From Salinisphaera orenii subsp. halophila YIM 95161 (GTDB lineage: Bacteria > Pseudomonadota > Gammaproteobacteria > Nevskiales > Salinisphaeraceae), in NCBI RefSeq assembly GCF_003732545.1, contig NZ_AYKF01000082.1:1-34971 (forward strand): a stretch of DNA of 34,971 nt, in the 5' to 3' direction. The position numbers and the translations under genes are program-made. Below the pieces are notes generated by a model. It was not told where the DNA came from, ran no database searches, and worked only from the letters and a program-made list of their open reading frames with translations. Of this stretch, positions 1,464-27,260 are shown one piece after another (position 1 is the stretch's first letter; each line of letters starts with the position of its first letter).

Positions 1464-1714
1464 CTGGGCCTGTCAACACGTCGTTGGAGCCCGAGCCAGG
1501 CGCATCCTGAAAATCGACTATGGGCGGCAAGACGAGGCGTCGTGCACGCCGCGCAGTCACGCTGCGTCGAGGCTGGATTGCCGCACAGCAGCGCGTGTCC
1601 CTAAGGCTTGGGCCTCGAATCGCGCGCTGCGGCGTCGCCAGTCTTGACCATGGCGCAACACCAACGGTTTGCGGTCTCCAACGCGATGTTCATATAAGGA
1701 TTAACCGCTCCTAG
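1464..1714 (+). repeat. Dispersed intergenic repeat, copy 1
   Basis: This is one of three diverged copies of the same noncoding repeat (the others are at 15467-15771 and 26999-27260). Its left end, CTGGGCCTGTCAACAC at 1464-1479, is the exact reverse complement of the right end of copy 2. Shared internal blocks with copy 2 include TCCTGAAAATCGAC.ATGGGCGGCAAG, GGATTGCCGCAC, CTGCGGCGT.GCCAGTCTTGA and GCGGTCTCC.ACGCG. The right end is more degenerate (GGATTAACCGCTCCTAG). It lies between the converging MFS and TraB genes. It looks like a MITE-type element or a decayed insertion-sequence relic; no transposase is visible. Confidence 0.7.
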
Positions 1715-2119
1715 AGGGCCGGTGGACCTGCGCACACCCGACTTCGTCGCTATTGCGCCACGTTTCGTCGACGTAGCGCCTGAGGGCGTGATCGCATCGA
1801 TGCGCAAGGGCCGGCGGCGGCACAAATCCATCCGAACCGTGCATGCCATTGCCCTGTGCAATCCGGCCGAGGCCGCAGCGGGTGTGCTCGCCCAAGGCGC
1901 GATTCCGGCCTCGCATCGCCGGATACCGAACGGCACGAACTTGGACGGTCGCGCCCGGGCGGGCTCCGGTCCGACCGCCACGCCCGGCGCGGCCGATCGC
2001 GGCGTGGACGGGAACCTTAGACTGGCCCTTGAGCGCGGCGATGATCGACGGTCGGGCGGGGTTGGCGTGCAGGCACCGCTCGCCGTGCAGATGTCGCCGC
2101 GCCACCGCCGAGATCGGCG
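1715..2119. other. Intergenic stretch with no recognised gene
   Basis: Together with the 1340-1463 flank, this fills the gap between two convergent genes around repeat copy 1. Open frames exist on both strands (for example minus strand 1701-2123) but I recognise no domain, start signal or consistent codon bias. It may be decayed DNA belonging to whatever brought the repeat. Confidence 0.35.
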
Positions 2120-2989
2120 TCACTCCACGCGGGTGACCGTGTGCCCGCTCGCGCGCAGCCGCTCGACCAGACCACGCGGGCCGACGAGATGAACCGCGCC
2201 CACCAGCACGAGCGCGTTGCCGGATCGTGCAAGCAGGCGCTCTACGGTCGGCAACCAGGCCTCGTTGCGATCGTAGATCAGGCGGTCGTAGAGCGCCGGG
2301 TAGGCGTCGGCCTGTTCGGCGACGGAGGCCGCCAGCCCCGCCGCGTCACCGTTGCGCCAGTAGGCATAGATGTCGGCCGGCGCCTGTGCGAGTTCGTCGG
2401 CGCTGTCGAGGGTTATGGCGAGCTGGTCGCGCGACAGCGATGCCGGCATGTCGGTGACGATGGCGAGGTGCGCGTCGATGGCCTGCAGCGGCTGGACCGG
2501 GCGGGCGTCGGCGAGCGCGCGTTCGTGGAAATGGCCGTCGAGGCCGAGATCCGGGCGAAAGCCGGCCGCCCGGTAGGACTGCATCTCGATCGCCATGGCC
2601 ACGAACCAGGGCCGATAGCCGTCCAGCCGCCGCATCGACAGCCCCTGATCGCGCGCCACGGCCCGCGTGCGCCGATACAACTCCTCGCCGACGTGCGAGC
2701 GCAGATCGCCCGCGTCGTAGCGGGCGGCCGCCAGCAGGGCGTCGCGCGCCTGCGGCCGCTGCAGCGCCGCCTGATCGGCCTCCAGCACGAGCCATTCGGT
2801 CGCCTCATAGGCGCGTTCGTAGGGCGGCGGCAGCGGATACGCCCGCGGCGGCAGCATGTGCATCGAGCCGGCGAGATACACGTGGTTCTCGGCACCTTCA
2901 ACCCGCCAGACCAGACCAGCCGGGCTGGCGAGCGCGGATCCGGTGGTCACCCAGAGTACGGCGAGTAGAGCGATTCCGGCGCAGCGCAT
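2120..2989 (-). CDS. TraB/GumN family protein, secreted
   Basis: This 289-residue protein begins with a signal peptide (MRC, a hydrophobic core, then SALA before S22), so it probably acts in the periplasm or at the envelope. The TraB/GumN signatures are present: GSMHML at residues 41-46 and GAVHLVG at 264-270 near the C terminus. The family is related to Tiki-type metalloproteases that use a GxxH motif and conserved acidic residues, but its substrate in bacteria is mostly unknown. I chose the ATG at 2989 because it gives a compact signal peptide with a G-rich stretch upstream; ATGs at 3019 and 3022 are alternatives. It is divergent from the MFS gene at 3207. Confidence 0.85.
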   Translation of the reverse strand: MRCAGIALLAVLWVTTGSALASPAGLVWRVEGAENHVYLAGSMHMLPPRAYPLPPPYERAYEATEWLVLEADQAALQRPQARDALLAAARYDAGDLRSHVGEELYRRTRAVARDQGLSMRRLDGYRPWFVAMAIEMQSYRAAGFRPDLGLDGHFHERALADARPVQPLQAIDAHLAIVTDMPASLSRDQLAITLDSADELAQAPADIYAYWRNGDAAGLAASVAEQADAYPALYDRLIYDRNEAWLPTVERLLARSGNALVLVGAVHLVGPRGLVERLRASGHTVTRVE

Positions 2990-3206
2990 GGCCAGCCCCG
3001 TGTGTCGTGGTGCCCTCATCATCGCTGCCCGCGGCGCGCGCGTCACCCCGGCGGCGATGCCGGCGCATGCCGCGGCGTCACGACCGCGTTTACCGCAACG
3101 CAACAATGGCCGGGCTAGACTGGGCGCCCGGTCGGGATACGCAGCGCGCCTCGATGCCACCGGATCGATCACGCCATTCGCCGACGCGCCGCCCGAGCCC
3201 TGCGCC

Positions 3207-4388
3207 ATGTCCCAGACGCCCGCCAATCCGCTTTTCGTGCTCATCGCCCTGGCGACCGGCGGCTTCGCCATCGGGACGACCGAATTCGCGACGATGAGCC
3301 TGCTGCCGTTCATCCAGTCCAGCCTGGACATCGATCCATCCACGGCGAGTCACATCATCAGCGCCTACGCCCTCGGCGTCGTCTTCGGCGCGCCGGTGAT
3401 CACCGTGCTGGGCGCACGCATGGCCCGCAAACCGCTGCTGCTCATCCTGATGGTGCTGTTTGCGGCCGGCAACGCGCTGAGCGCGCTGGCGCCGAGCTAC
3501 GGCTGGCTGGTGTGCTTCCGCTTTCTCAGCGGCCTGCCGCACGGCGCGTATTTCGGTCTGGCCTCGCTCGTGGCGGCAGCCGTGGTGCCGCCGGCGCGCC
3601 GGACGCAGGCGGTCGGCTACGTGATGCTCGGATTGACCGCCGCGACCATCGTCGGCGTGCCGCTGGCGACCTGGCTGGGCGGGCTTGCCGGCTGGCGGCC
3701 CGGCTACTGGGTCATCGCCGGTCTGGCGCTGCTCGCGGCGGCCCTGATTCTACTGTTCGCACCACGCGACCGGGCCGCGGCCCAGGCCAGCCCCCTGCGC
3801 GAGCTGGGCGCGCTGGCGCGGCCGGCCGTCTGGCTGACGCTCGCGATCGGTGCGATCGGCTTCGGCGGCATGTTCTCTGTCTACACCTATCTGACCGCCA
3901 CGCTCGACGCGGTCACCGGTGTCGGCCAGCGCTGGATGCCGCTCGTTCTCGCGATCTTCGGCGTCGGCATGACGCTCGGCAATATCGTGCTGCCCCGGCT
4001 GGCCGATCGCGCGCTGATGCCCACGGCCGGCGGGCTGCTGGTATGGAGCGCCATGGCGCTGGCGGCGTTTCCGTTGGTCGCCGGCAACGTCTGGCTGCTG
4101 AGTGTCGACGTGTTCTGCATCGGCATCGGCGGCGCGCTCGGCACCGTGCTGCAGACCCGGCTGATGGATGTCGCCGGCGACGCCCAGAATCTCGCCGCCG
4201 CGCTCAACCACGTGGCCTTCAACACCGCGAACGCGCTCGGCCCCTGGCTGGCCGGTCTGGCGCTGGCGGCCGGCTTCGGCCTGCGCTCGACGGGCATCGT
4301 CGGCTGCGTGCTCGCGCTCGGCGGCCTGGCGATCTGGGCGATCGCATGGCGGGCCGGCCACCGTCCGGGGCCGGCCGCGCCCGACTGA
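3207..4388 (+). CDS. MFS transporter, AraJ-like DHA1 family
   Basis: This is a 393-residue, 12-segment inner-membrane transporter. The N-terminal pattern (GTTEFATM at residues 23-30, then SAYALGVVFGAP at 52-63 and the cytoplasmic loop GARMARKP at 69-76) matches the DHA1 branch that includes AraJ, NepI and Cmr-type drug or sugar exporters. A proton antiporter role is known for the family; the substrate here is not inferable. The ATG at 3207 was chosen because the family's first membrane helix starts right after it. The upstream frame continues antisense to the divergent TraB gene and is not used. Confidence 0.85.
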   Translation: MSQTPANPLFVLIALATGGFAIGTTEFATMSLLPFIQSSLDIDPSTASHIISAYALGVVFGAPVITVLGARMARKPLLLILMVLFAAGNALSALAPSYGWLVCFRFLSGLPHGAYFGLASLVAAAVVPPARRTQAVGYVMLGLTAATIVGVPLATWLGGLAGWRPGYWVIAGLALLAAALILLFAPRDRAAAQASPLRELGALARPAVWLTLAIGAIGFGGMFSVYTYLTATLDAVTGVGQRWMPLVLAIFGVGMTLGNIVLPRLADRALMPTAGGLLVWSAMALAAFPLVAGNVWLLSVDVFCIGIGGALGTVLQTRLMDVAGDAQNLAAALNHVAFNTANALGPWLAGLALAAGFGLRSTGIVGCVLALGGLAIWAIAWRAGHRPGPAAPD

Positions 4389-4448
4389 TCCCGACCGGAG
4401 CACGGCCCCGCCGACCGCCACGATTGCCGCGGCGATGCAAACATGGTA

Positions 4449-4478
4449 TTGGGTCGTACTGCTGCCCGCGGGCAGAAT
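4449..4478 (+). promoter_or_regulatory. Possible sigma70 promoter of the OmpA-like gene
   Basis: TTGGGT (4449-4454) and CAGAAT (4473-4478) are separated by 18 bases, about 95 bases before the ATG. The spacer contains a perfect 14-base palindrome, CTGCCCGCGGGCAG at 4462-4475, which could be an operator. Each hexamer matches the consensus only in part. Confidence 0.3.
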
Positions 4479-4573
4479 GACGCGAAAAACAAGAGAGGGG
4501 ACATCGGACGCCGGCGGATGGATCGACGGCGGCCGCTCTCGACGAACAACAATCGATAAAGGGAGAACGAGCG

Positions 4574-5254
4574 ATGAAAACCATTTTCGACTGGCGCCGC
4601 CTGGCCCTGGCGGCGACGGCGGCGATCGCACTCGCTGGCTGTGCCGCCGCACCGTCCTCCGGGGATGCCGACGACGACGGCGGCGCCTATGTCGTCGACC
4701 CGGACGGCAACGTCTACAAGGATGCCGACGGCAACTGCTGGCAGACGCCCAACGCACCCAAGAAGGAAATGCGGGCCGAGTGCGGCGATCAGATCGCCCA
4801 GACCGACGGCGATTCGGACGGCGACGGGGTGCCCGACAGCCGCGACGAATGCCCGGGCACCCCGCGCGGGGTGGAAGTCGATGCCCGCGGCTGCCCGATC
4901 GAGCAGCAGTCGCCGATCGTGCTCAAGGGCGTGACCTTCGAGTTCGATTCGTCGAATCTGACGATGTCCGCCGAGAACCGCCTCGACAACGTCGTCGACG
5001 CGCTGGAGGCCAGTCCCGACGTGCGGTTCCGCATCGACGGCCACACCGACAGCGTCGGTTCCGAGTCCTACAACCTCGACCTGTCGCAGCGCCGCGTGGA
5101 ATCGGTGCGCACGTATCTGATGGGTGCTGGCATCGACACGCGCCGCATCACGGCGACCGAAGGCCACGGCGAATCCGAGCCGGTGGCGACCAACGAGACC
5201 GCCGCCGGGCGCGCCCAGAACCGGCGTGTGGAACTCAGCGTCGTTTCCGACTAG
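4574..5254 (+). CDS. OmpA-family outer-membrane lipoprotein with TSP3 repeat
   Basis: The 226-residue product starts with a lipoprotein signal ending in ALAGC (lipidated Cys at residue 23). An acidic segment leads into a thrombospondin type 3 repeat (DGDSDGDGVPDSRDECPGTP, about residues 79-98), which normally binds calcium. The C-terminal OmpA/MotB domain (about 115-226) shows FEFDSSNL, IDGHTDSVGS and the final RRVEL, the parts that bind peptidoglycan diaminopimelate. It should tether the outer membrane to the cell wall, as other OmpA-TSP3 lipoproteins do. A good ribosome binding site, GGGAG at 4561-4565, precedes the ATG. It is a single-gene unit followed by a GC hairpin. Confidence 0.9.
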   Translation: MKTIFDWRRLALAATAAIALAGCAAAPSSGDADDDGGAYVVDPDGNVYKDADGNCWQTPNAPKKEMRAECGDQIAQTDGDSDGDGVPDSRDECPGTPRGVEVDARGCPIEQQSPIVLKGVTFEFDSSNLTMSAENRLDNVVDALEASPDVRFRIDGHTDSVGSESYNLDLSQRRVESVRTYLMGAGIDTRRITATEGHGESEPVATNETAAGRAQNRRVELSVVSD

Positions 5255-5269
5255 ACCGGTGTGACCGAC

Positions 5270-5299
5270 GCACCCGGGTCCCGGACGGGCCCCGGGTGC
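5270..5299 (+). terminator. GC hairpin after the OmpA-like gene
   Basis: GCACCCGGGTCCC and GGGCCCCGGGTGC form a 13-bp stem with one mismatch and a short loop, 16 bases after the stop codon. There is no T-run after it, so it is a U-less terminator or an mRNA-stabilising hairpin. Confidence 0.5.
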
Positions 5300-5428
5300 G
5301 CTCGGAGACCCTGCCCCGGACGCCGCCGATCCGCGCGCGGCACGGCCCTCGTCCGGCGGGTCGCGCTATACCGTCGGGCGCGGACCTTCTAGACTCGAGC
5401 CGACAACCGAACTGCGCTGGAGAGATGA

Positions 5429-5860
5429 ATGAAACGGGTCAGGGATCTGCTGCGGGAGAAGGACACCGACATGTGGTCGGTGGCCCCGGACGACACGGTC
5501 TACGACGCCATCAAGCTCATGGCCGACAAGAACATCGGCGCCGTCCTGGTGCTCGACGGCGGGCGGCTGGTGGGCCTGCTGTCCGAGCGCGACTACGCGC
5601 GCAAGATCACCCTCGAGAACCGGCGGTCCCGCGAGACCGCAGTCCGCGACGTCATGACCACTCACGTCGCCTACGCGGAGCCTTCGGAAACCCTCGAGGA
5701 ATGCATGGCCCTCATGACCGACAAGCGTTTCCGCCATCTGCCGGTCATGGAGGGCGACACGCTGATCGGAGTCTTGTCCATCGGCGACCTCGTCAAGGCC
5801 GTGATCGCTGAACAGCGCTTTCTCATCAAACAGCTCGAGCACTACATCAGCGGCGGCTGA
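5429..5860 (+). CDS. CBS domain pair protein
   Basis: The 143-residue cytoplasmic protein consists almost only of two CBS motifs (about residues 8-60 and 75-135) forming one Bateman module. Typical features are the GAVLVLDGGRLVGLLSERD block in the first and FRHLPVMEGDTLIGVLSIGD in the second. Such stand-alone modules bind adenine nucleotides such as AMP, ATP or NAD(H) and regulate partner proteins; there is no attached catalytic domain and the partner is unknown. A Shine-Dalgarno GGAGAG (5419-5424) sets the start. It is transcribed alone in the same direction as its flanks. Confidence 0.9.
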   Translation: MKRVRDLLREKDTDMWSVAPDDTVYDAIKLMADKNIGAVLVLDGGRLVGLLSERDYARKITLENRRSRETAVRDVMTTHVAYAEPSETLEECMALMTDKRFRHLPVMEGDTLIGVLSIGDLVKAVIAEQRFLIKQLEHYISGG

Positions 5861-5971
5861 AGCCCGTCAGCGGGCAGCTCGCTGCTGGCGGCCGGCGGCC
5901 GCGCCGCATCGCGCCGGCGCACGCCGACGTAACCGCCCCCCGGACGGACGCCGATATCGCGGGAGGTCCCA

Positions 5972-6277
5972 ATGCGCTACCGAGGCCGCACGAGCCTGAT
6001 CCTGATCCTGTCGCTCGCCGGCGTCGTGACGGCGCCGGCGCTGGCCGCCGGGTTGAACGACCACCGCACGCCCGCCGGGCGCGCGGGGTCGGACAGCCTC
6101 GATCGCGGCCTGGATTCGCGCAGCCGGCAGCGCGACAACCTGTCCCGGCAACTGGAGCAGAACCGCGAGCGACTCGACAGCGCATCGGAGGCGCGCCGGC
6201 TGGACCGCAACGCCGACGATCTGAGTGAGCGTCTGCGCCGAGAACGCCGGAACGCGACCGGCGCGGGGCCGGATTAG
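5972..6277 (+). CDS. Small secreted coiled-coil protein
   Basis: This is a 101-residue product with a clear signal peptide (RGRT, a hydrophobic core, then APALAA). The mature part is extremely charged and rich in Arg, Asp, Ser and Leu (SRQRDNLSRQLEQNRERL), with heptad-like spacing that predicts a helical coiled coil. I do not recognise a family. A strong ribosome binding site, GGGAGG (5961-5966), and the signal sequence support a real gene. Function is unknown; a periplasmic or cell-surface structural role is the simplest guess. Confidence 0.7.
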   Translation: MRYRGRTSLILILSLAGVVTAPALAAGLNDHRTPAGRAGSDSLDRGLDSRSRQRDNLSRQLEQNRERLDSASEARRLDRNADDLSERLRRERRNATGAGPD

Positions 6278-6520
6278 ACCGTCGACTGCATCCGAGCCCG
6301 CGCCGACACTGTTGCGCACCCGGACGAAGCGTTGCGGCGGCGCCCCGCTCGCCCGCGTGCGGCAAGGCCGGGTTGCTGCGCCCAGCGAATTTTACGGGGC
6401 GTCTGTTCCGTCGACGGGCGGTCCATGAGTCATCCGCCACGACCGCCCTGTCGCCCCGCACATTCCGATCGGCAGCCCTCGCAATCCGAGCCGCACCGCG
6501 CTGAACGCGACATGCTGACC

Positions 6521-6547
6521 AAACAGCCGCCGGCTTCGTCAGCCGGC
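6521..6547 (-). terminator. Intrinsic terminator of htpX
   Basis: On the minus strand, directly after the htpX stop codon, GCCGGCT and AGCCGGC form a perfect 7-bp stem (6529-6547) followed by TGTTT. It is the only hairpin in the window that I saw followed by a short T-rich tail. Confidence 0.65.
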
Positions 6548-6552
6548 AGCGG

Positions 6553-7422
6553 CTACATCCGCGCCCGCGTACCCGGGGCCATCGACTCCAGGCGACGGAC
6601 CCGCTCCTCCGTGGCCGGATGGGTCGAGAACAGCTTCGACACGCTCGTACCGCTCAGCGGGTTGACGATGAACAGGTGCGCGCTGGCCGGATTACGCTCG
6701 GCCGACTGCATCGGCTGGGCGTGATTGGCCTGTTCCAGCTTGCGCAGCGCGCTGGCCAGGCCCCGCGGGCTACCCGCGATTTCGGCGCCCCCCGCATCGG
6801 CGGCATATTCACGCGAACGCGATACAGCCAGCTGGATCAGCGTCGCGGCGATCGGCGCCAGGATCATCATCGCCAGGCCGCCCAGCATTCCGCCGCCCTG
6901 ATTGTCGTTGCCGCGAAAACCGCCGAACAGCATGGCCCACTGCGCCATGTTGGCGATCATGGCGATCGCGCCGGCGAAGGTCGCGGCGATCGCGCTGATC
7001 AGCGTATCCCGGTGACGCACATGCGCCAGCTCGTGCGCGAGCACGCCGCGCAGTTCCTCGCGGTTCATCAGCCGCATCAGGCCCGTGGTGGCCGCGACCG
7101 CGGCGTGGGTCGGATTGCGACCGGTGGCGAACGCGTTGGGCGTGACCGATTCCATCAGATAGACCTTCGGCATCGGCAGACCGGCGCGCTGCGATAGCTC
7201 TCGGACGATGCCGTGCAGCTCCGGCGCTTCGTCGGCGCCCACCTCGCGCGCACCGTGCATCTTCAGCACCAGACGGTCGGAGAACCAGTAGCTGCCGAAG
7301 TTCATCGCCACGGCGAAGCCCAGTGCGATGACCATGCCGCCGGTGCCGCCGAGCGCGTTGCCGACCAGCACGAGAAGCACGGTCAACCCGGCCAGCAGGA
7401 AGGTCGTGCGCAGTGCATTCAT
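6553..7422 (-). CDS. htpX: Protease HtpX
   Basis: This is a 289-residue inner-membrane zinc metalloprotease of the M48B family. Membrane segments lie at about residues 6-24 and 28-46, with two more after the catalytic helix. The zinc motif HELAH is at 130-134 and the third ligand region, [13 protein letters not shown], lies near 212. HtpX degrades damaged or misassembled membrane proteins together with FtsH. The ATG at 7422 has an AGAGAGGG ribosome binding site just upstream. It lies 65 bp downstream of the DUF421 gene on the same strand and could be cotranscribed or use its own promoter in that gap. Confidence 0.95.
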
Positions 7423-7461
7423 CGAGATGCCCTCTCTGATAACGAGCCCATCGCTCAACCT

Positions 7462-7491
7462 CTTAAATGGCGTCGGCGCGTCCGGAATCAA
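7462..7491 (-). promoter_or_regulatory. Possible htpX promoter
   Basis: On the minus strand TTGATT (7486-7491) and TTTAAG (7462-7467) are 18 bases apart, with four of six matches each to the sigma70 consensus. The -35 overlaps the stop codon of the DUF421 gene. No convincing heat-shock (sigma32) promoter was seen. Confidence 0.3.
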
Positions 7492-8081
7492 GCGCTGCGC
7501 GACGTCTGTCGACGGGCGTCGAACGTCGGCTGTTCGGCGAGCACGCCGGCCAGCAGTTCACGCCCGCGCACGCCCGAGAACAGGTCCGGGTCCACCGATT
7601 CGCGCCGTTCGATGACCGCCACGTCGCCGGTCGTCTCCATGACCACCGCCAGCACCTGGCTCGGATGGGTGACCCCGGCCAGCCGAAGCTTGGCGCGCAG
7701 GTCGTCCCGGGTGACCCGGGCCATGGTGAGATGATCGTCGAGGATGCGCTCGCCGGCCATGAGCAGGAGCGGCTCGTTGTCGATCAGCCGGGCGAAAGCC
7801 GGCCAGGAGCGCCGCAGCCGCGCGATCTTGTACTGAATGCCGTACAGCACCGCCAGGCCCACGATGCCGGTGACCAGCGGTGGCTTGTCATTGAGCAGCG
7901 TCGATGCGATCACCGAACCGAGCGCGACCGTGATGGCGAAGTCGAACCCCGACATCTTGGAAAAGCTGCGCAGGCCCACCAACCGGGTGAACAGCATCAG
8001 CGCGGCGTAAATGACCAGGCCCGACACGACCACGCCGATCAGCGATCCAAGGTCGCCGGCAAGCCAGCTGGATTGATTCAT
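7488..8081 (-). CDS. DUF421 (YetF-like) membrane protein
   Basis: The 197-residue protein has three N-terminal membrane helices (about 12-32, 44-62, 68-84) followed by a cytoplasmic alpha/beta domain. The conserved DUF421 segment [24 protein letters not shown] (residues 33-56) and the downstream [18 protein letters not shown] block identify the family, typified by Bacillus YetF. The biochemical role of DUF421 proteins is not settled; they are often found with stress or sporulation genes. The ATG at 8081 fits the family start, but no good ribosome binding site is visible. HtpX follows on the same strand. Confidence 0.85.
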
Positions 8082-8282
8082 GGGCGGACACGGCGGGCCG
8101 GAGGAAAGGATGCGCGGCACGATGCCTGCCGCCCGGCGAATCGGCAATCCGTAGCACCCGCGCGCTGCGAGAGCGCCGAACCGACGGTCGGTCCGGCGCG
8201 ATGGGCGATTCCTGCCACCGCCGTCCACGCCCTGCCGCCCGCATTTGCTAGTGTGGCATCGAATCACGCACGAGAAACGCCC

Positions 8283-8909
8283 ATGATCCGCTATCCGCTG
8301 CTTCTCCTGGCCATTGCCGTCCTCCTCGGCGGCTGCACGACCCTCCGGGAGACCGAACCCGATCAGACGGCACGCCACCAGATGCTGTTGTCCACCGCGG
8401 CCGACGAGGCCAGCCAGCGCATTTCGCCCAATCTGCCGGCGGGCACGTCCGTGTTCGTCAACACCGACCACTTCGGCTCGTCGGACGACTACCAGTCCAG
8501 CTATGCCATCGGCGCGATCCGGGCGGCGATTCTCAAGCAGGGATACAACCTCGCAGCCAGCGCCGACGAGGCCGACACCATTGCCGAGGTCAGCAGCGGC
8601 GCGCTGTCGATCGATCGCCGCGAACGACTGCTCGGCGTTCCGAGCGCTTCGGTACCCATCCCGCTGGCCGGGCCGTTCAAGACGCCCGAAATCTCACTCT
8701 GGAAGAGCAAGGAACGCACCGGCGTGGCCAAGTTCCGGCTGACCTTCTACGACGCCGAGACCGGCGCGCTGCAGGACGCCAGCGACCCGGTCTATGGGTT
8801 CTCCCACTTCGACCGCTCGTCGCTCCTGTTCTTCGGCAGCACGGACAGCAATCTCATGCCGCCGGACGTCGAGGAACGCCGCGAGAGCAACGCCGGGACC
8901 CAGGACTGA
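8283..8909 (+). CDS. Lipoprotein, DUF6655-like
   Basis: This 208-residue protein has a lipoprotein signal peptide ending LLGGC (lipidated Cys about residue 18). The rest is an alpha/beta sequence with SVFVNTDHFGS, an AIRAAILKQGYNLA helix, then LLGVPSASVPIP and TPEISLWKSKERTGVAKF. These blocks resemble lipoproteins that I know as DUF6655; I am moderately sure of that assignment. No enzymatic motif is evident and the function is unknown. It is divergent from the DUF421 gene, with about 200 bp between them. Confidence 0.75.
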   Translation: MIRYPLLLLAIAVLLGGCTTLRETEPDQTARHQMLLSTAADEASQRISPNLPAGTSVFVNTDHFGSSDDYQSSYAIGAIRAAILKQGYNLAASADEADTIAEVSSGALSIDRRERLLGVPSASVPIPLAGPFKTPEISLWKSKERTGVAKFRLTFYDAETGALQDASDPVYGFSHFDRSSLLFFGSTDSNLMPPDVEERRESNAGTQD

Positions 8910-8927
8910 GTCACCGCTTCCGGGCCT

Positions 8928-8949
8928 GCCCGGCGATTCGTCGCCGGGC
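8928..8949 (+). terminator. Perfect hairpin with UUCG loop after lipoprotein gene
   Basis: GCCCGGCGA-TTCG-TCGCCGGGC is a perfect 9-bp stem closed by a UUCG tetraloop, 18 bases after the stop codon. There is no T-run downstream. It probably terminates transcription or protects the 3' end. Confidence 0.6.
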
Positions 8950-10647: not shown

Positions 10648-10651
10648 GCCG

Positions 10652-11546: not shown

Positions 11547-11559
11547 CCTCGCCGTCGTT

Positions 11560-13086: not shown

Positions 13087-13091
13087 CGTCT

Positions 13092-13876: not shown

Positions 13877-14000
13877 GATCAAGGGTGCACAACCGCAATA
13901 GCCCCCGACGAAACGCGCGCCGACCCGGCACCGGATCGCCCGGCCACTACTGCGACGGCGGCGCGCCGCGCGGAACCGGCCGCCCGACAGGATGACGACG

Positions 14001-15470
14001 ATGACCGATGTCGCGCACAACGCATTCGTCTCCCGACTGCGCGCCCGCGGCGTGGACCCGATGCTGCGTGCCGGTCTGACGATCCACTCGGTCGAGCCCG
14101 TGCCCGTGGCCGTGCATCGACACGATATCGGCGTGGTCCGGGTCACCCGCGAAGCGCTGTGCTGTGCGGGCGATCCCGATCCCGCGCTCCCCCGGCTGGA
14201 GATCGTGCCCGAGGCGCAGTTGCCGGCCCGCATCGAGATCCATCGACGCCGCGTCGGCATGGCGCTGGACGCGGCACTGACCGACCATCGCGCCACCATC
14301 GCAGAGCACGGCCATCTGCCCTGGGCCGCCCTCACCGCCCGCATCGGCCACACGGTGATGAGCACGGTCGCCTGTCCGGACTGCGCCGGCACCACGAGCG
14401 ATCCGGACACGGCCGACCCCGGCGCCGACCGCTGCACGGTCTGCCGTGGCACCGGCCGTTACAGCCGCGGCGCCCGCCTGCAGGCCGTGCTGGCCTGCGC
14501 CGAACGCACGCAGGACATCTACTGCGGCGATCACGAGACTCTCGTCGGTCCCGCCGTGGAGCGCGAACTGAGCGACGGCGACCGCTTCGTGTTCACTGCG
14601 ATCGAGCTGCTGCAACCGGGGCGCTGGCGACTGGAGTCGACGTACCGCCCGGAGCACATCCACATCATCGACGTCACTTTCGATGACCGGCGCATGCGTC
14701 TCGTGAGCAACGAGGCCGACGATGCCCTTCTGACCGGCGCCGAACTCGTGGACGAGATCGCCACGGCGACCGCACGCGTCGAGATCGAACGCATCGAGAC
14801 GATGCTCGACCGGATGGAACGCCGGCGCCGATTCGTGCATCCGCGGCGAATTCTGGCGGACGTCAACGCCAGCGCCACGGGCCGGGGCATCACCGGGGCG
14901 CGCCTCGCGCGCGACGGACTGACGCCGTGGCCCGAAGCGCATGCCGCGCCGGCACGCGTCGACGGCCTGCGCACCCGCCTCGCCGCCTTGATTCGGCGAC
15001 AGCGTCGACGCCACGGCCAGCGCCTGGCGACCGGCCTGTTCAGCGGCGTACTCCTGCTCGGGGGCATGCTGGTCGCCGGCCTCGTGCTTACCGCACCGGC
15101 CCAGGCCGCGACGCTGCCACCGTGGTTCGGCGGGCCGTGGCCGGAAGCCGGACGACGGCTGCTCGCCGGGCTGGGAGCGCACTGGCCGATCACCGCCGCG
15201 GTGTTCTTCCTGAGCATCGCCGCGATCGAGCTGTGCGCCACAGCCCTGGAACACCGCAGCAGTCGTCGCACGGCGCGCCGACACACCTGCAGCGGCCCGG
15301 TGGCCGAGGCGCTCTCCTGCTATACCGCCAGCCGGGCCAGCCTGGCCGCCGCCCTGATTCTGGCGCTGCTGGCCCTGTCGCTGCCCCACTGGGCCCCCGC
15401 CGCGCTCGGCGATATGCTGCCGAGCTCGCCGACGATCTTCTCCGCCGCCGGGGCCACGGGCGTCGGCTAG
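14001..15470 (+). CDS. Zinc-finger membrane protein of unknown function
   Basis: This 489-residue protein does not match a family that I recognise. The soluble N-terminal part contains a DnaJ-like double CxxC cluster, CPDC at residues 125-128 and CTVCRGTGRY at 145-154, which probably binds one zinc. An Arg-rich helical segment (about 250-335) leads to three predicted membrane helices (about 336-360, 390-412 and 445-467). The CxxCxGTG pattern is what DnaJ and similar chaperone-linked proteins use, but there is no J domain. I chose the ATG at 14001 because AGG at 13989-13991 is correctly spaced; an ATG at 13992 overlaps that site. The TAG stop lies inside the left end of repeat copy 2. Confidence 0.75.
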   Translation: MTDVAHNAFVSRLRARGVDPMLRAGLTIHSVEPVPVAVHRHDIGVVRVTREALCCAGDPDPALPRLEIVPEAQLPARIEIHRRRVGMALDAALTDHRATIAEHGHLPWAALTARIGHTVMSTVACPDCAGTTSDPDTADPGADRCTVCRGTGRYSRGARLQAVLACAERTQDIYCGDHETLVGPAVERELSDGDRFVFTAIELLQPGRWRLESTYRPEHIHIIDVTFDDRRMRLVSNEADDALLTGAELVDEIATATARVEIERIETMLDRMERRRRFVHPRRILADVNASATGRGITGARLARDGLTPWPEAHAAPARVDGLRTRLAALIRRQRRRHGQRLATGLFSGVLLLGGMLVAGLVLTAPAQAATLPPWFGGPWPEAGRRLLAGLGAHWPITAAVFFLSIAAIELCATALEHRSSRRTARRHTCSGPVAEALSCYTASRASLAAALILALLALSLPHWAPAALGDMLPSSPTIFSAAGATGVG

Positions 15471-15771
15471 GGCTGCCAACACTTCTCATGCGAGCCCGCG
15501 CCAAGCGCTTCCTGAAAATCGACCATGGGCGGCAAGTCGCGGCGTAGCGCGTGCCGCGCAATCATTCTGCGCCAGCGCGCGACAACGCTGGATTGCCGCA
15601 CCCTGGTCGTTTCGTGAGGCGCTTGGCCCGACGGGTTCCGCGCATGAAACATGGGCACTCTGCGGCGTTGCCAGTCTTGATCGTGGCGCGCCACGACCCG
15701 CGACTCACGCGTTGCAGAACACGATGTGCGGTCTCCGACGCGGCGTTCGCAGGAAGTGTTGACAGGCCCAG
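15467..15771 (+). repeat. Dispersed intergenic repeat, copy 2 (best preserved)
   Basis: This 305-bp copy has terminal inverted repeats: left CTAGGGCTGCCAACACTTC (15467-15485) against right GTGTTGACAGGCCCAG (15756-15771), consensus CTRGGSCTGYCAACAC read inward. Similarity extends further inward (TGCGA, then a CCGCG block). The core holds a perfect palindrome, CGTGGCGCGCCACG. It begins within the stop codon of the upstream gene. No coding capacity is seen. Confidence 0.75.
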
Positions 15772-20924: not shown

Positions 20925-21139
20925 GCCATTCCTTTCAAGAGTCAGTTCGCTCGGCCGCGGCCAGTGGGCCCACCACGCGGACCCCACCCAGCCGGAATCG
21001 ATGGATCACGGTCGACCCGCCGTGGTTCAAGCCCGCACCGCCAAACGACGGGCGAAGCCGCGGCAACCCGGGGCGCAGATGCCGCGGCAGACGCCGGGCA
21101 CGCGCCCCGGCCGCCCGACCCGCTCGCCGCGAGTCGTTC

Positions 21140-22306
21140 TCAATCCGAACCGTGCAGCAGATACAGCTGGCGTCCGCCGTCATTGAGCGACGTCACCACG
21201 ATCCTGCGGCCGTCCGGGCTCGGACAGGGGTGCAGGTCGCAGCGGAACGGACCGCGGCTCGGGCGATGGTTGCCGAAGCGCGCGATGCGGCGGGCGCTGG
21301 CGTCCGACTCGTCGTAGACGCAGAGATCGATCTCCTCGGCGTAGGGCGTATCGAAGACGAACCGCCGCGTCGACCCCGGGAAATAGCGCACGTGCGCGTT
21401 GGCACCCAGCGCTTCGGGCGCGATCTGACGAATGCGCCGGCCTTCGGGCGCTTCGTCCGCGTACAGATAGAAACCGTCGCGCTGCCAGAAATAGAGCGAG
21501 CGGTTGTCGAGCCAGATCACGTGCGAGGTCGCGCTCGCGAGCAGACGCAGATCGCTGCCGTCGACGTTGCAGGTCAGACTGACGCCCATGCGGTCGTTCC
21601 AGCCGCCGCCGCGGGTGCGAAAGCGCAGCTTCACGGTGAAACGGCGGCCGTCGGGCGAGAGCTTGACGTGGTTGAACCAGTAGCGATAGCGCGACCGGGT
21701 GTGGCGCAGATAGGCGCGCCAGCCGATCCGCGACATGAGAAAGCGCACGGCGCGCCGGACCGACAGCACGAGCGTATCGCCGCCGTCGTCCAGCGACTGG
21801 CGCCAGACGCCGTCGCCGCGGGGCGCGCGCTGGGACAGCCGTGCGCCGCGACCGCCGGCGTAGCCGTAGCCGGGGCGTACCGCCTGGAGCCGCGCCATGT
21901 TCAGAGACAGCGTGAAGCGCCCGTTCGGGTCGACGGCGTAGCTGGGGCGGCCCAGCGTGCGCGTGGTGCCGCTCGCCAGATCGTGCACGCGGGTGACGAA
22001 GGTATCGTCGTCGCGGTCGTTCCAGATGAGCGTCGTTCGACCGGGCACCCACTGCGCCATCGGCCCCTGCTGCCAGCTCCACGCATGGCTCGTGCCCACC
22101 GGGATCCAGCGGGCGTCGTCGTCCAGATCGATGACCCCGACCTCGACCGAATCGTCGGCCGTGGGCTGGCGTTCGGCAAACGCCACGCAGTGCGCGGCGA
22201 CATAGCGGCTCGTCGAATCGAAGACGTTGATATCGTAATAGCTGTGCGTATGGAAACGCCCTTCGTCGGTGCCTTGGGTGAGTTGCTGCAACTGCCAGTC
22301 GGTCAT
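21140..22306 (-). CDS. Beta-propeller protein of the glycan cluster
   Basis: The 388-residue soluble protein has no signal peptide. It contains repeated blade-like motifs ending in acidic turns: VIDLDDDARWIPVG, TTLIWNDRDDDTFVTRVHDLASG, AVDPNGRFTLS, KLSPDGRRFTVKL and PCPSPDGRRIVVTS. This predicts a seven- or eight-bladed TolB/WD40-like beta-propeller, and the layout resembles oligogalacturonate-lyase-type propellers. I recall similar proteins near capsule genes, but no activity is established. The ATG overlaps the TGA of the upstream glycosyltransferase gene (ATGA), so the two are translationally coupled. It may recognise or modify the glycan; this is inference. Confidence 0.75.
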   Translation of the reverse strand: MTDWQLQQLTQGTDEGRFHTHSYYDINVFDSTSRYVAAHCVAFAERQPTADDSVEVGVIDLDDDARWIPVGTSHAWSWQQGPMAQWVPGRTTLIWNDRDDDTFVTRVHDLASGTTRTLGRPSYAVDPNGRFTLSLNMARLQAVRPGYGYAGGRGARLSQRAPRGDGVWRQSLDDGGDTLVLSVRRAVRFLMSRIGWRAYLRHTRSRYRYWFNHVKLSPDGRRFTVKLRFRTRGGGWNDRMGVSLTCNVDGSDLRLLASATSHVIWLDNRSLYFWQRDGFYLYADEAPEGRRIRQIAPEALGANAHVRYFPGSTRRFVFDTPYAEEIDLCVYDESDASARRIARFGNHRPSRGPFRCDLHPCPSPDGRRIVVTSLNDGGRQLYLLHGSD

Positions 22307-23283
22307 GTGGACAATCTCTGTCGGATTCGTCGAGCGATATAGCGCGCGTCGTCGCCCCGCGCCAGCGCGGACGCCATCAGGCGGAGCATCCGCACGCGCC
22401 GACGCCAGCCGAGCGGATCGACCCGGTGGCGCGAGCGCAGCGGAATGTCGGCCAGGCGGATGCCGCCCTCGGCCTCCACGTAGTCGACCAGCTTGCGACC
22501 GTACTCGGCGCCCGCGGCGCTGACGCCCGGCGTCGCGAGCCGGCGGCGCAGCGTCTGCGCCATCGACGCGGTCCATTTGAAGTGATGCACCCGGAACGGG
22601 ATGAAGAACCTGAAGCGCGCGCGGCCGATCGCGGGAAAGCGCGCCAGATGCCGGTCGAACAGATAACGCACGGGTACGTCGCCGTTCTGCGGATGATGCC
22701 CGCCCCGGCTCGGCAGAAGCTCGGCCTTCAGCAGCATGACCTTGATCGTGCCGAACCAGTCGTGGTGCCGCCCGGTCCGGCCGACCGTGCACTGCACATC
22801 GCCCTGCAGGGCGAACGTCTGCCCGATCGGCTGGTCCGGGTCGACGTCGACCAGGCGACCGTCGGCGGCGATGCGATCGATGAACACGCCCTGCACGCAG
22901 TTGACGCCGAGTGCCTCGCAGTGCGCGATGATCTCGCCCAGTGGCGCGGGATATTCGTGGAACTCGTCCACGTCGGCGCTGACCACCCAGGCGTCGGCGG
23001 GCACGCGTTCTGTCTGCAGGTCGCGCCGTCGCGCCCACATGGCGTCACTGGTGTAGGGCCCGATCCAGACATCGGGGGCAGGCAGCTGCCGGCTCTCGAG
23101 CAGCGCGCGAGCCCGCGCCAGGTTCGGCGAACCCGCATCGTCGGTATTGAGTATCAGATGGACGTTCTCGCGCCGGACGCCGAGCGCGAGATAGTGATCG
23201 AGGAAATGCGGCAGATGCGCGAATTCCGTATCGACGCCGATACAGCTGACGAGATGGATGGATCGATCATCGACCGCGCTCAT
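22303..23283 (-). CDS. Glycosyltransferase, GT92/GT2-like
   Basis: The 326-residue cytosolic protein starts like family 92-type transferases (LVSCIGVDTEFAHLPHFLDHYLALGV, residues 11-36), followed by NTDDAGS and the metal-binding motif SADVDEFHEYP (102-112). Later blocks are FIDRIAADG, PVRYLF and VHHFKWT. The family adds sugars in surface polysaccharides or glycoproteins; donor and acceptor are not inferable. It overlaps both the sulfotransferase gene upstream and the propeller gene downstream by 4 bp (ATGA), which indicates one operon and close functional linkage. Confidence 0.85.
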   Translation of the reverse strand: MSAVDDRSIHLVSCIGVDTEFAHLPHFLDHYLALGVRRENVHLILNTDDAGSPNLARARALLESRQLPAPDVWIGPYTSDAMWARRRDLQTERVPADAWVVSADVDEFHEYPAPLGEIIAHCEALGVNCVQGVFIDRIAADGRLVDVDPDQPIGQTFALQGDVQCTVGRTGRHHDWFGTIKVMLLKAELLPSRGGHHPQNGDVPVRYLFDRHLARFPAIGRARFRFFIPFRVHHFKWTASMAQTLRRRLATPGVSAAGAEYGRKLVDYVEAEGGIRLADIPLRSRHRVDPLGWRRRVRMLRLMASALARGDDARYIARRIRQRLST

Positions 23284-24272
23284 GTCTCATCATAGCGATT
23301 GAGAAACGAGAATTCGCGCGTCAGTGCCGCCACGCGCGCCTGCCGGTCCTGGGGCCAGTCGAGCCGATCGCGGCTGCGGTTCGGCGTCCGCTGGACCAGA
23401 CCACTGCAGGCCCGAACGTAGGCTTCGTCGACCGGCAAATCGAGGAAGGCGAGCATCGAACGGATCGTGGCTTCGGGATCGGCCGTGAGGGCCTCGTGGC
23501 TCAACTCGAACCAGTGGGCCGGCGCCGTCCGGTGCTTGATGTCGGCGACCGTCCGGCACAGCGCGGCGTAGTCCTCGATCTGGGAATCCAGCGCGACGTC
23601 GGCGATGCGGCCATCGGCCTGATAGGCGCGCAGCGCCGCGTCGAAATCCTCGGCCGCCACCGACGTGCGCAGTTCGTCGTAGGCCCGGCCCTTGCGCAGC
23701 GACATGGTGGCGATGTTGTCGAACGGATTGCGCAGCACCAGAATCCATTTCTTCGCGGGCCGCGGCCGCCGGTTCAGACGATCCAGCAATCCCGCATCCT
23801 GGGCCACGCGGCGCACGGCCTGATCGCCCTTCTTGTCGCCCAGCACCCGCAGCGGATCGGCGCTGGTGTGCGCACCGCCCGGCACGAGATAGGAGAATCC
23901 GTTCCAGCAGCGACCGTGACGCGTGAATTCGAGCGCCCTGCGGTCGATCAGCGAAAAGATCGCGGCCAAGGGCACGCCCTGGTGCAGCAGCCCCATGGCG
24001 TCGAGTTCGTGCGACACCCGGGCCTGCGGATGCGCATCCAGGATCGAGCCGATCAGCGAATGACCGGAGCGCGGAAACCCCGCGAACTGAACGAACGTCT
24101 CGACGTCGGTCAGACGCCGGCGCGCCTTGAGGGCGTGCGCCGAAGCCTCTGCGAGCAGTCGCCATACGGGCACGCTCTCGTGATGCCGGGATTCCCGCCC
24201 CTCGAAGCGTGGCACGGCATGGGTGGCCTGGGCGCGTCTTCGCAGCCCGTGGTAGATGGTCTTCGCCTTCAT
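23280..24272 (-). CDS. PAPS-dependent sulfotransferase
   Basis: This 330-residue protein has the two cofactor motifs of the sulfotransferase fold: the 5'-phosphosulfate loop GFPRSGHS (65-72) and the 3'-phosphate site RNPFDNIATMS (181-191). WFELSHEALTADPEATIRSMLAFLDLP near the C terminus is also typical. It should move sulfate from PAPS to a hydroxyl group, here probably on a sugar, given that it starts an operon with a glycosyltransferase. The ATG at 24272 follows a GGGAA ribosome binding site. It is upstream of, and 4 bp overlapping with, the GT92-like gene. Confidence 0.9.
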   Translation of the reverse strand: MKAKTIYHGLRRRAQATHAVPRFEGRESRHHESVPVWRLLAEASAHALKARRRLTDVETFVQFAGFPRSGHSLIGSILDAHPQARVSHELDAMGLLHQGVPLAAIFSLIDRRALEFTRHGRCWNGFSYLVPGGAHTSADPLRVLGDKKGDQAVRRVAQDAGLLDRLNRRPRPAKKWILVLRNPFDNIATMSLRKGRAYDELRTSVAAEDFDAALRAYQADGRIADVALDSQIEDYAALCRTVADIKHRTAPAHWFELSHEALTADPEATIRSMLAFLDLPVDEAYVRACSGLVQRTPNRSRDRLDWPQDRQARVAALTREFSFLNRYDET

Positions 24273-24466
24273 CGTGTAATTCCCGGTTCGCGGTCTGCCC
24301 GCGCTGCGCCCGGTCCGCGTAAAAGCGCACAGGATAAACGCTTCCCGCGGCATCGGGGCAGGCCGCGGGCGCGATTCGATACGCTCAGGGCAGACATTGC
24401 CAGAGCGCGCGCCGCGCCGGCGCCAGCGACTATGGCAAGGCCGGCACGCTTCGTCGCCGGCCGGCG

Positions 24467-24503
24467 GGCGCCTCGCGACAGGTCAGCGTCCACGAGAGGC
24501 GCC
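24467..24503 (-). terminator. Inverted repeat after the membrane protein gene
   Basis: GGCGCCTC and GAGGCGCC are exact reverse complements with 21 bases between them, 12 bases after the membrane protein's stop codon on the minus strand. It may separate that gene's transcript from the sulfotransferase operon. There is no T-run. Confidence 0.35.
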
Positions 24504-24515
24504 GCGAGCGACGCT

Positions 24516-25292
24516 TCATGCACGCGTATCTGCCGACACCATCGGCGGGCGGTGCACCAGATAGCGATACAGACAGATGAGCAGCGGCACCCAGATATAG
24601 ACATGGACCGTCGATATCTTGGCGCTGTAGTTACCGTAGATCGCGGGCATCACGATGAATATGAAGGCAAATACAAAGGACAGGGCAGCACGTGGCGCAT
24701 CCAGCTCGCGCCGGCTGCCGCGCAGCCGCCAGAGCAGCGCCGCGGCGCCGACCAGCACCGTGAACAGCGCGAACTTGAGCACGAGATGGCCGGGATCGCG
24801 CTGATAGTGCTGCAGACTGTTGCCGTAGGCGACCAGCATCGGCGGCACGAGCCACACCGCGCGTGCCAGCAGATGCCGGCCGGAGGGCGCCCGGCCGGCA
24901 GCCGCCCAGCACATCAGCGCGAACAGCAGATACAGGGCCGCCCCCAGCATCTCGAGCTCTTCCTCGACCATGCGGAAGTTATAGGCGACATCATCGCTCA
25001 GTCCGCCGATCTCGTTGCAATGGTTGGAGCACCAGTCGCCGATGTGTCCGGCCTGCATCGCCACGCCCGCGGCGGCGAGCACCCCCAGCAGCAGCCACTG
25101 CCGCCGCGGCCACAGCAGCAGAAGCAGACAGCCGCCGAAGAACGTACCGATCCACAACTGGTGGCGCCCGATCACGAAGTTGGACTCGGCGGCATACATC
25201 GCCAGCGCAAAGAAGCCGGCCACCAACGCGAGCCGTATCTCGTGGCGGGACGTGCCATGCAGATAGACGTCCACGAAGAGCATCATCGCCAC
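24516..25292 (-). CDS. Polytopic membrane protein, frame interrupted upstream by TAA
   Basis: The open part encodes about 258 residues with seven or eight hydrophobic segments; it is unrecognised. Notable loops are GDWCSNHCNE (two Cys, probably extracytoplasmic) and SLQHYQRDPGH. It resembles the integral-membrane proteins of glycan clusters in general layout only. The nearest start codon in this fragment is a GTG at 25292 with no ribosome binding site. The same frame continues upstream through a single TAA (25338-25340) to an ATG at 25499 with a strong ribosome binding site, giving 327 residues in total. So the gene is either a pseudogene, recoded, or carries a sequence error. Confidence 0.7.
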   Translation of the reverse strand: MAMMLFVDVYLHGTSRHEIRLALVAGFFALAMYAAESNFVIGRHQLWIGTFFGGCLLLLLWPRRQWLLLGVLAAAGVAMQAGHIGDWCSNHCNEIGGLSDDVAYNFRMVEEELEMLGAALYLLFALMCWAAAGRAPSGRHLLARAVWLVPPMLVAYGNSLQHYQRDPGHLVLKFALFTVLVGAAALLWRLRGSRRELDAPRAALSFVFAFIFIVMPAIYGNYSAKISTVHVYIWVPLLICLYRYLVHRPPMVSADTRA

Positions 25293-25337
25293 CAGCGGAA
25301 ACCAGCGGGAGACGACCTCGAAGAGTCGGTACTCGCC

Positions 25338-25499
25338 TTACGGCTTGCCCGTCGACACATGCGCGGGTGCTTCGAAGTAGTGCAGCACATCCAGCGTCAG
25401 GCCGTTGAGCCAGTCACGGCCGATGAAGCAGAACACCACGACGGCCGCCAGCGCCATGACCAGATCCCAGCGTATGCCGCTGACATCGAGTCGATTCAT
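25338..25499 (-). pseudogene. N-terminal part of the membrane protein, before the TAA
   Basis: ATG at 25499 is preceded by an excellent Shine-Dalgarno (AGGGGGTGA). It opens a 53-codon frame with a first membrane helix (LVMALAAVVVFCFIG, about residues 13-27) and ends APAHVSTGKP at a TAA. The same frame resumes directly with GEYRLFEVVSRWFPLVAMMLF and runs into the rest of the gene. Confidence 0.65.
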
Positions 25500-25793
25500 C
25501 GTCACCCCCTACACCTGTCGATCCGCCGCCCGCCCGGGCGACCTGTACATCGCTTTCCATGACCGTCATCGGCCCGAACCCGGTTTGGATTCACCTCGGC
25601 TCGACCGCCGTAGGCGTGATGGGGATGAAACCGGCATGCGCCGGCTCCCGCGCGCGCGTCATGTGACGTCGGGGGGGCGCCGATAAGCGCTGTATCATAC
25701 ACAACAGCCCGCGCCGACCTGGAGCCCTCGCAGGGGGCAAGCGATCCCGCCGCCCGAAACCGCGCAGTCGCGCCCGGCCCGAAGCGAATCGCG

Positions 25794-26174
25794 TCAACGC
25801 TTGCCGTCGCACGAGCGCCGGGCGCGGTAGACCAGCCACGCGTAGAGCACGACATTGACACCGATCACGGTCGCGCCGATGAACATCTGTGCCGATCGTG
25901 TAAGCCCGGCCGGGTAGATCAGCGCCATCAGATAATGATCGATGAAACCACCGCTATAACCCGCCTGCCCGGCCGCTCGCCTGAGCGCCTGCTCGAGCGG
26001 CGTCAACGGACAGAGGCGCCCCGAAAACGACACATACGCCGCCCAGCAGGCGGCCGGCACGTGCACGAAGGCCAGTCGCGGCCAGGCCAGAGCCAGCACG
26101 CCGCCACAGGCCACGAGCAGGATGAATGCCAGGTGGATAAGAAGCACCGCATCGGCGGTCAGCGCATACCACAT
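25794..26174 (-). CDS. DUF2784 family membrane protein
   Basis: The 126-residue protein has three or four membrane helices: ADAVLLIHLAFILLVACGGVLAL (8-30), then WAAYVSFSGRLCPLTPLEQALRR and IDHYLMALIYPAG, and a last helix near the C terminus. The CPLTPLE block after the second helix and the final YPAGL segment are typical of DUF2784, which has no assigned function. The start at 26174 encodes the usual MWYAL beginning. It is transcribed in the same direction as the lipoprotein gene upstream of it. Confidence 0.85.
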   Translation of the reverse strand: MWYALTADAVLLIHLAFILLVACGGVLALAWPRLAFVHVPAACWAAYVSFSGRLCPLTPLEQALRRAAGQAGYSGGFIDHYLMALIYPAGLTRSAQMFIGATVIGVNVVLYAWLVYRARRSCDGKR

Positions 26175-26336
26175 GCCCGCTCAGACCCCGGCACTCGGAC
26201 GGCGTCGCGACGAGCCTCGGCCGCATTCGCCCCGAGCCACACGGCCGATACGCCGGACGCAGCGCCGGCGGCCGGTCATGGACGAACCGTCACGCGTGGC
26301 GTGGGTTTCATCGGCACCCCCCGTGGCACCGACGCA

Positions 26337-26723
26337 TCACCGGGATGGCGCCGGCACCAGACGCCAGCCATCGGCGGTCTCGTTGAGCCGAAGGCGCCGG
26401 CTGACGACCTCCCGCTCGTCGCCGACGACCACGTCGTAGCGCACGTCCAGATCGTAGTCGCCGTGGTCGAGTTCGCGACTGTCCAGGATCTGGACATGTT
26501 CGACCTGCACGTCCGCCGGCTCCGGCGCGCCGAGCGACTCGATGAATGCGACACCGTCGGCACCGCCGAGCGTCTCGGCCATCGACCGCGCATGGACGAT
26601 GCCGCTGCGCAGCGAGTCCTCCACCAGCGGCTGCACATCGGCCGCTTCGGGCCCATCGGAGCAGCCGGCGAGTCCGGCCAGCACAAGCGTGATCGACAAG
26701 TATTTCAAAGCCGTTGTGCGCAT
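26337..26723 (-). CDS. Small lipoprotein of unknown function
   Basis: The 128-residue product has a lipoprotein signal peptide ending LAGLAGC (lipidated Cys at residue 21). The mature part is acidic, with VQILDSRELDHGDYDLDVRYDVVVGDE followed by RRLRLNETADGWRLVP, a pattern seen in small cystatin-like or NTF2-like periplasmic domains. I cannot name the family. The ATG at 26723 gives a normal signal peptide; a TTG at 26750 would add nine residues. It is likely anchored in the inner or outer membrane facing the periplasm. Confidence 0.75.
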   Translation of the reverse strand: MRTTALKYLSITLVLAGLAGCSDGPEAADVQPLVEDSLRSGIVHARSMAETLGGADGVAFIESLGAPEPADVQVEHVQILDSRELDHGDYDLDVRYDVVVGDEREVVSRRLRLNETADGWRLVPAPSR

Positions 26724-26998
26724 GGGGCGACCGGTGGCGAAATGATGCAAGAGCTATAGCGAACCAGCCGGTCGAAGACAAGCCGTGGCCGAAGCGGCCG
26801 AACAGTCGTATCGGCCCGGTCGCAGGCTGCCGCCGAGCCGCCCTGAAAGCCGGAGCGGTCACGACAGGCAGCCGCCGCGTCCACTCGGCCGAGCGGTCTT
26901 CGGCCCCCACCCGGGATGCCCGGCCCATCAGGCGCCGTCGGGCGCCGCCGAGGCTGCGGTGCACGTCGCCCAGTGCCGGGTCAATCGTCATGCGAGCG
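26724..26998. other. Intergenic stretch next to repeat copy 3
   Basis: I recognise no gene here. With repeat copy 3 it forms a 540-bp gap upstream of the lipoprotein gene. A minus-strand open frame beginning MTIDPALGDVHRSL near 26991 has no recognisable domain. Confidence 0.35.
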
Positions 26999-27260
26999 CG
27001 CTGAACACCGTCATGCGACGTGACGAGACGTAACGCACGCCGCGCAGCGACTTTCGCGACCGCGTGCGATCACACCGAATTGCCGCACGTCGTGAATGTC
27101 TCGGAGCCTTGGCCCTTCGGGTCGGGCTCCGTATGGACCGATGAGCATCGACGTCTGCGGCCTTTCACGTCCCGATCGTGGCGCGCCGGATCGGCGACTC
27201 GTGCCTTGCCTCACACGATATGCGATCGCCCAACGCGGCGTTCGCACGACGTGTCAGCGA
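26999..27260 (+). repeat. Dispersed intergenic repeat, copy 3
   Basis: This is a diverged 262-bp copy lacking about 45 bp near its left end compared with copy 2. Shared blocks include GC.CGCCGCGCAG, AATTGCCGCAC, CTTGGCCC, GATCGTGGCGCGCC, ACACGAT.TGCG and ACGCGGCGTTCGCA. Its own ends match each other (CGCTGAACACCGTCATGCGA on the left, reverse complement CGCTGACACGTCGTGCGA on the right). The right end stops three bases before the DUF1244 stop codon (27264-27266). Confidence 0.65.

Follow-up and report, generated by a model that had tools for sequence, protein, structure and literature searches.

The three repeats in the window

The question raised by this locus was what the repeats are that lie at three places in one stretch of a Salinisphaera orenii subsp. 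halophila contig (34,971 nucleotides, the window in the following): mobile DNA, a structured intergenic element, or both. The first-pass annotation had described them as a three-copy family with terminal inverted repeats (TIRs). When other collected copies were compared with the window by BLASTN, three regions were matched (1466-1699, 15469-15769 and 26986-27262, with 99, 104 and 93 matches, respectively), besides one weak single match at 6285-6379. Mononucleotide shuffles of the window gave 0 matches in each of 5, and the hairpin covariance model R1 found the three copies alone at E<0.01, which demonstrated that the family was real. No fourth clear copy was found within the window by BLASTN or by R1. 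All three copies have the same orientation. The positions initially given for copies 1 and 2 held, whereas copy 3, its ends read by eye, proved longer than assumed, with its decayed left TIR starting near 26972 and its right end lying at 27266 (Table 1).

Table 1. Repeat copies, hairpin modules and shared stop codons in the window
Feature	Position	Strand	Remarks
Copy 1	1465..1713	-	Decayed, with one hairpin lacking its apical part; CTG on the left, CTAG on the right
Hairpin module H2 of copy 1	1509..1596	-	Covariance model R1, 36.2 bits, E 7.2e-7
Copy 2	15468..15771	-	Best preserved of the three; left CTAGGG, right GGCCCAG
Hairpin module H2 of copy 2	15514..15612	-	Covariance model R1, 70.1 bits, E 2.6e-15
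Stop codon TAG of ORF 13992-15470	15468..15470	+	Target TA plus first G of copy 2
Copy 3	26972..27266	-	Most decayed; both TIRs degenerate; ends by eye (sequence and alignment)
Hairpin module H2 of copy 3	27000..27091	-	Covariance model R1, 26.1 bits, E 2.4e-4
Stop codon TAG of ORF 27264-27755	27264..27266	-	Common to the ORF and the right end of copy 3

Abundance in Salinisphaera

Three copies in one contig had been taken to imply many in the genome. This expectation was borne out: BLASTN with copy 2 gave at least 41 matches in the window's genome (40 of 148 candidates scored), and TIR-like ends with up to two mismatches occurred 57 times, versus 0 for the reversed pattern. The search of relatives with the same copy, suggested in the first-pass annotation, also yielded further copies; 15 of 41 genomes matched, namely 14 of Salinisphaera and one other of the family. 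Matches thus occurred in the window's genome and in each of the 13 other Salinisphaera genomes included, G007 having two weak ones. By seeking TIR pairs 180-360 bp apart and retaining those of 240-325 bp, a set of 100 full-length Salinisphaera copies was obtained. Their length was 241-316 bp, too short for a transposase.

Genomes G008 and G010 each had dominant TIR variants of their own in many copies. From 100 of 148 places in G008, 31 neighbouring TIR pairs less than 4 kb apart were collected, 26 of which span 257-309 bp; the remaining five measured 166, 2224, 3505, 985 and 56 bp. The core described below was detected at E 0.001 in 36 of the 45 G008 loci fetched for their TIRs. Two of the longer units carry genes. 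At L087:2179-4402 the TIRs surround a unit of 2224 bp with ORFs resembling LysE and aldo/keto reductases, and at L088:940-1924 a 985-bp unit with two small ORFs resembling small transporters (all named by eye), the right end of which retains MITE-like sequence; both are possible passenger transposons. A large number of the TIR matches in G010 are close to a contig end (roughly 130 bp or less), so that the repeat seems to fragment the assembly, which suggests a recent burst.

Ends, target site and empty sites

The ends common to the aligned copies are the TIRs GGGCCTGTTRMCRYTTCRTRCG. TA was found at the left end of 61 of 100 copies, at the right end of 61 and at both ends of 39, with C at -3 in 83/100 and G at +3 in 76/100; the target is TA, usually within CTAG. 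As had been proposed for close strains, filled and empty sites were compared, using ten copies of the window's genome and the sister-species genome G012. The site was empty for four (L008, L014, L029 and L037) and filled for five (L010, L023, L025, L027 and L055), while the tenth, L019, had no clear ortholog. L008 has one TA at the empty site and two at the filled site, so that its duplicated TA is intact. The sites of L037 and L029 agree with duplication of TA and later mutation of the TA copies, and the empty site of L014 is ambiguous for target duplication. Taken alone, L008 would also fit a 4-bp duplication of CTAG, but the element's first G never varies among 30 copies, and L098 combines a left CTAG with a right CTAA, so duplication of TA fits better.

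The G012 ortholog of L010 (C6:39676-41328) differs in having some 1.2 kb of additional DNA, which separates the left flank from the shared copy. At L087:4402-5418 an IS481-family transposase ORF (NF033577) adjoins a TIR end at CTAG, and L022 and L024 have an identical flank directly to the right of the element. The CTAG ends of the elements may be insertion hot spots.

A twin-hairpin core

The interior of the element consists of two inverted copies (H1 and H2) of one hairpin module of about 98 nt. Model R1, built from H2 of 20 copies and with the ends left out of it, detects H1 on the opposite strand. Inside the module the motif GCGTT...GCGCCTTG, which has a bulged CTT, is fixed while the stems covary freely: across 42 modules, identity reaches 98-100% in the bulge and in parts of the motif but not in the stems.

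In an alignment of 30 Salinisphaera copies of 266-270 bp (L215 was left out as aberrant), RNAalifold gave nearly equal energy for both strands, with 85 shared pairs. Excluding the TIRs, double-sided changes were found in 33 of 79 internal pairs, compared with 9.4 ± 1.8 after shuffling, and 98.1% of the cells paired, compared with 31-40% when slid. Across genera the covariation score was 0.767 versus 0.184. In alignment A3 (42 modules), 25 pairs had double changes versus 22.8 in shuffles, 21 of 500 of which were as high; this measure is weak. A3 was fitted to the structure of the model, which itself favours G·U. Longer copies showed, by eye, matching inserts in both arms. Between the hairpins, the loop CCC-N3-GGG was present in 79 of the 100 Salinisphaera copies, N3 being TTC in 38 and GAA in 26. 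The two variants are reverse complements, as if the loop flips.

The initial alternative of a MITE-like or a structured intergenic element thus resolves into both, given the TIRs, TA targets, empty sites, covarying interior and the IS5 partners described below.

The core beyond Salinisphaera

What the first-pass annotation had not seen is that the core is common to many Gammaproteobacteria, with different TIRs. At E 0.01, R1 matched 56 of 369 sampled gammaproteobacterial genomes in 45 of 271 genera, 3 of the 56 being Salinisphaera; the E-values are rough, and at this cut-off per genome a few of the 56 may be chance. A phylum-wide search at E 0.001 gave 22 of 398 genomes, ten of them outside Gammaproteobacteria. 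Among 16 named genomes, matches were found in five: Pseudomonas flavescens (9), P. mendocina FFL34 (1), Azotobacter vinelandii (2), Idiomarina sp. ATCH4 (5) and Nitrosomonas sp. Nm33 (1, weak). BLASTN added plasmids of Azotobacter chroococcum and one Halomonas plasmid as carriers; with single elements as queries it gave no match in phages or in RefSeq E. coli genomes.

Among 28 non-Salinisphaera loci, 17 had an inverted module pair, one (L297) a direct pair, and ten a single module (E up to 1). A TIR pair with a score of at least 14, a cut-off set after the ends had been inspected, was present at 67 of 74 non-Salinisphaera loci (among the matches listed, in places several from one genome), versus a single one of 141 control windows displaced by 800 bp. 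Loci without such a pair were L302, L305, L311, L348, L352, L354 and L360. Many of the non-Salinisphaera TIRs fall in a continuum around GGGCCTGTT; those of L294, L300, L304, L314/L317, L315, L316 and L320 lie, by eye, outside it. Two TIR types match the ends of two different IS5 subfamilies (IS5_3 and IS5_4). Since the TIRs differ and two types match different subfamilies, the core is conserved while the ends change.

Probable IS5-family partners

An autonomous insertion sequence with the same ends had been considered worth looking for. Such elements exist in related species and genera; none was found in the window's genome. In a search with PF01609 of four genomes, Salinisphaera sp. Q1T1-3 (G001) was found to contain an IS with the same ends as the repeat, 866 bp long with the flanking CTA bases counted, the transposase of which belongs to NCBIfam IS5_3. 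TAGGG(N)CTGTT-like ends were seen by eye in 24 of 27 relatives of this element, the exceptions being L133, L152 and L159. Pseudomonas flavescens carries this IS and, in addition, cores with its TIR. The search for transposase relatives covered 17 genomes, G011-G013 not among them. Good relatives, some partial, came from G001, G003, G005, G006 and G007; those in G000 and G002 were weak, and G004, G008, G009 and G010 had none. The window's genome contains no close relative, with pieces of 38-42% identity only. Copies thus persist in several genomes, including the window's, without a close partner. Of the 16 named genomes that have a transposase relative, only 5 carry the core.

The end of L304, CTAGGGAAACACTGATTAATG, recurs as the end of an IS5_4 element carried by plasmids of Caballeronia and Burkholderia; this partner was found in plasmids of Betaproteobacteria, not in the genome of L304. 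BLASTP between the IS5_4 and IS5_3 transposases gave no similarity, but each family model matched the other protein below its cut-off, indicating distant members of one superfamily. No partner was found for the other TIR types, and searching plasmids with the L316 and L300 TIRs did not reveal one. As a separate observation, the start of the IS5_4 element of Burkholderia ambifaria plasmid plas1 coincides with the stop codon of a TetR/AcrR-annotated gene (L371:2501-2504).

The hairpin model found no core inside the IS at 19 loci checked; its sole match there, which two records of a single locus share, was a separate copy at a distance of 1.2 kb. Derivation of the MITE from its IS by internal deletion (type I) is not what these coreless interiors show. 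Two further candidates were dropped: an IS630-type partner, because DDE_3 (PF13358) matches in G008 and G000 lacked a pair of matching ends, and other PF01609 matches in G000 and G008, which had no matching end pair in the fetched flanks.

The partners also bear on the proposal that the elements are giant relatives of REPs and BIMEs, moved by an HUH (RAYT) transposase acting on the hairpins, with the TIRs only a basal stem. The inverted pairs of bulged hairpins do resemble REP dimers, and a CGCCTT-like motif occurs in E. coli REPs as well. TAG stops are reportedly supplied by REP ends (PMC3733652). But two TIR types match the ends of DDE-type IS5 elements, a TA duplication is made, and the modules of about 98 nt fall outside the 20-40 bp palindromes by which REPs, BIMEs and REPINs are recognised. 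We consider this origin very improbable.

Stop codons, gene context and the level of action

Flanks of at least 400 bp were available for 95 copies. In 35 of these the element coincides precisely with the stop codon of a called gene, in three cases on both sides; in the window this holds for two of the three copies. Because the element starts with G, insertion at TA restores TAG (TA + G) and is harmless at a stop codon. The ratio of stop-codon to intergenic positions was 35:41 for copies and 17:52 for background CTAG sites nearby (odds ratio 2.6, p 0.009), and the CTAG target explains most of the enrichment. This comparison leaves out 19 copies whose junction continued an open frame and 5 whose flanks were short, counts orthologous copies of two genomes twice and uses genes from a rough custom caller. 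The distance to the element was within 5 bp for 47 of 102 neighbouring 3' gene ends, compared with 13 of 86 5' ends.

These positions would suit a core that works as RNA, in which hairpins copied from gene ends stabilise or terminate mRNA; as the two modules are inverted, either orientation would give one sense module. Strong covariation and a conserved unpaired motif also fit such a role. Across the 42 modules, G·T exceeded A·C in helix 2 (46 vs 2, mostly one fixed T·G pair) and in helix 3 (16 vs 8), helix 4 having two of each; an RNA or single-strand role of the module tip would be compatible with the excess. A strand test of the 30 Salinisphaera copies did not discriminate, with G·T and A·C among shared pairs numbering 16/5 in H1, 7/5 in H2 and 7/4 in the TIRs. 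The basal stem (stem 1), however, used all four Watson-Crick pairs, with 21 G·T and 30 A·C of 824 cells. It lacks the wobble excess expected under RNA selection, hinting at DNA rather than RNA. Moreover, element orientation relative to the stop-codon genes was unbiased (19:19), and divergent genes flank 17 of the 94 copies whose neighbours were both called. Rfam gave 0 matches at gathering score in the window, which leaves no known Rfam RNA family to assign, and a single match far below that score in four loci. Action of the core as RNA is, in our judgement, rather unlikely.

A basal stem that varies freely, keeps Watson-Crick pairs and shows no wobble preference would also be expected of a neutral passenger without function, in which template switching at quasi-palindromes keeps the stems paired and recombination among MITEs spreads the core; the reverse-complementary TTC and GAA loops agree with this. 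Template switching leaves unexplained, however, why the bulge and parts of the motif stay 98-100% identical across genera and TIR types, and a functionless core seems to us unlikely. The fixed motif points to recognition by a protein.

Proposed explanation

The repeat is a non-autonomous transposon (MITE), since each feature of this kind that was tested was found. How it spreads can be stated less firmly. We think it probable, with some reserve, that IS5-type enzymes cut and paste it while the twin-hairpin core acts as folded DNA that aids its spread. Most likely, IS5-superfamily DDE transposases would act in trans on the element ends, inserting the element at TA, mostly in CTAG, and duplicating TA. 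Folded into a hairpin or cruciform, the core would be bound by a protein of the transposition machinery or of the host, so that TIR pairs carrying it would spread better; it would last longer than its ends and take on new TIRs from any IS5-type element at hand. The action of the core, its binding protein and its benefit to spread are inferred. In its most general form the proposal is tentative, possible rather than probable: the mobile unit would be defined by the folded core rather than by its ends, and this core would repeatedly gain the ends of different IS5-type transposons and aid their spread as tiny elements through a protein recognising the bulged hairpin.

MITEs are usually viewed as ends around a meaningless middle. 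Here it is the middle that stays conserved and the ends that change; this holds for roughly one sixth of the gammaproteobacterial genera sampled and makes an old question testable: what beyond terminal repeats decides which non-autonomous elements amplify. The core also provides a marker family for genome annotation, and the element an example of a first base that makes insertion at stop codons harmless.

Comparison with known systems

Among the nearest systems in kind are the IS5 elements themselves (NCBIfam IS5_3 and IS5_4), which share their TIRs with two TIR types and use CTAG/TA targets; they differ in encoding a transposase and in having no core inside at the 19 loci checked. MITEPsy1 of Pseudomonas syringae, 100 nt long, shown to move and reported to make a 4-nt duplication, is likewise non-autonomous, tentatively IS5-like, directed to CTAG or YTAA targets and represented by relatives in several genera (PMC3189936). 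That size and duplication set it apart by description, and the part of the paper considered mentions no twin-hairpin core. REPs are units of 20-40 bp with GTAG or CGTC tags, the GTAG type being tied to RAYT transposases, and REP dimers, BIMEs and REPINs resemble the present elements as inverted pairs of imperfect hairpins in high copy near gene 3' ends that supply stop codons (PMC3733652); they differ from the longer modules found here, which lie within DDE-type TIRs and go with a TA duplication. The elements treated in PMC10969869, PMC4853749 and PMC4666352 are, in the parts considered, other than the present core.

The first-pass annotation knew of no named family that the repeat matches, and no description of this twin-hairpin core was found in Rfam or in the mainly open-access literature, on which its novelty rests. 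ERIC, Correia/NEMIS and RUP are palindromic, TA-inserting non-autonomous repeats able to fold as RNA, with sequences different from the present core; to our knowledge, each is tied to one TIR type. The MITE kind is thus known, and it is the conserved, apparently exchangeable twin-hairpin interior that makes the present family unusual.
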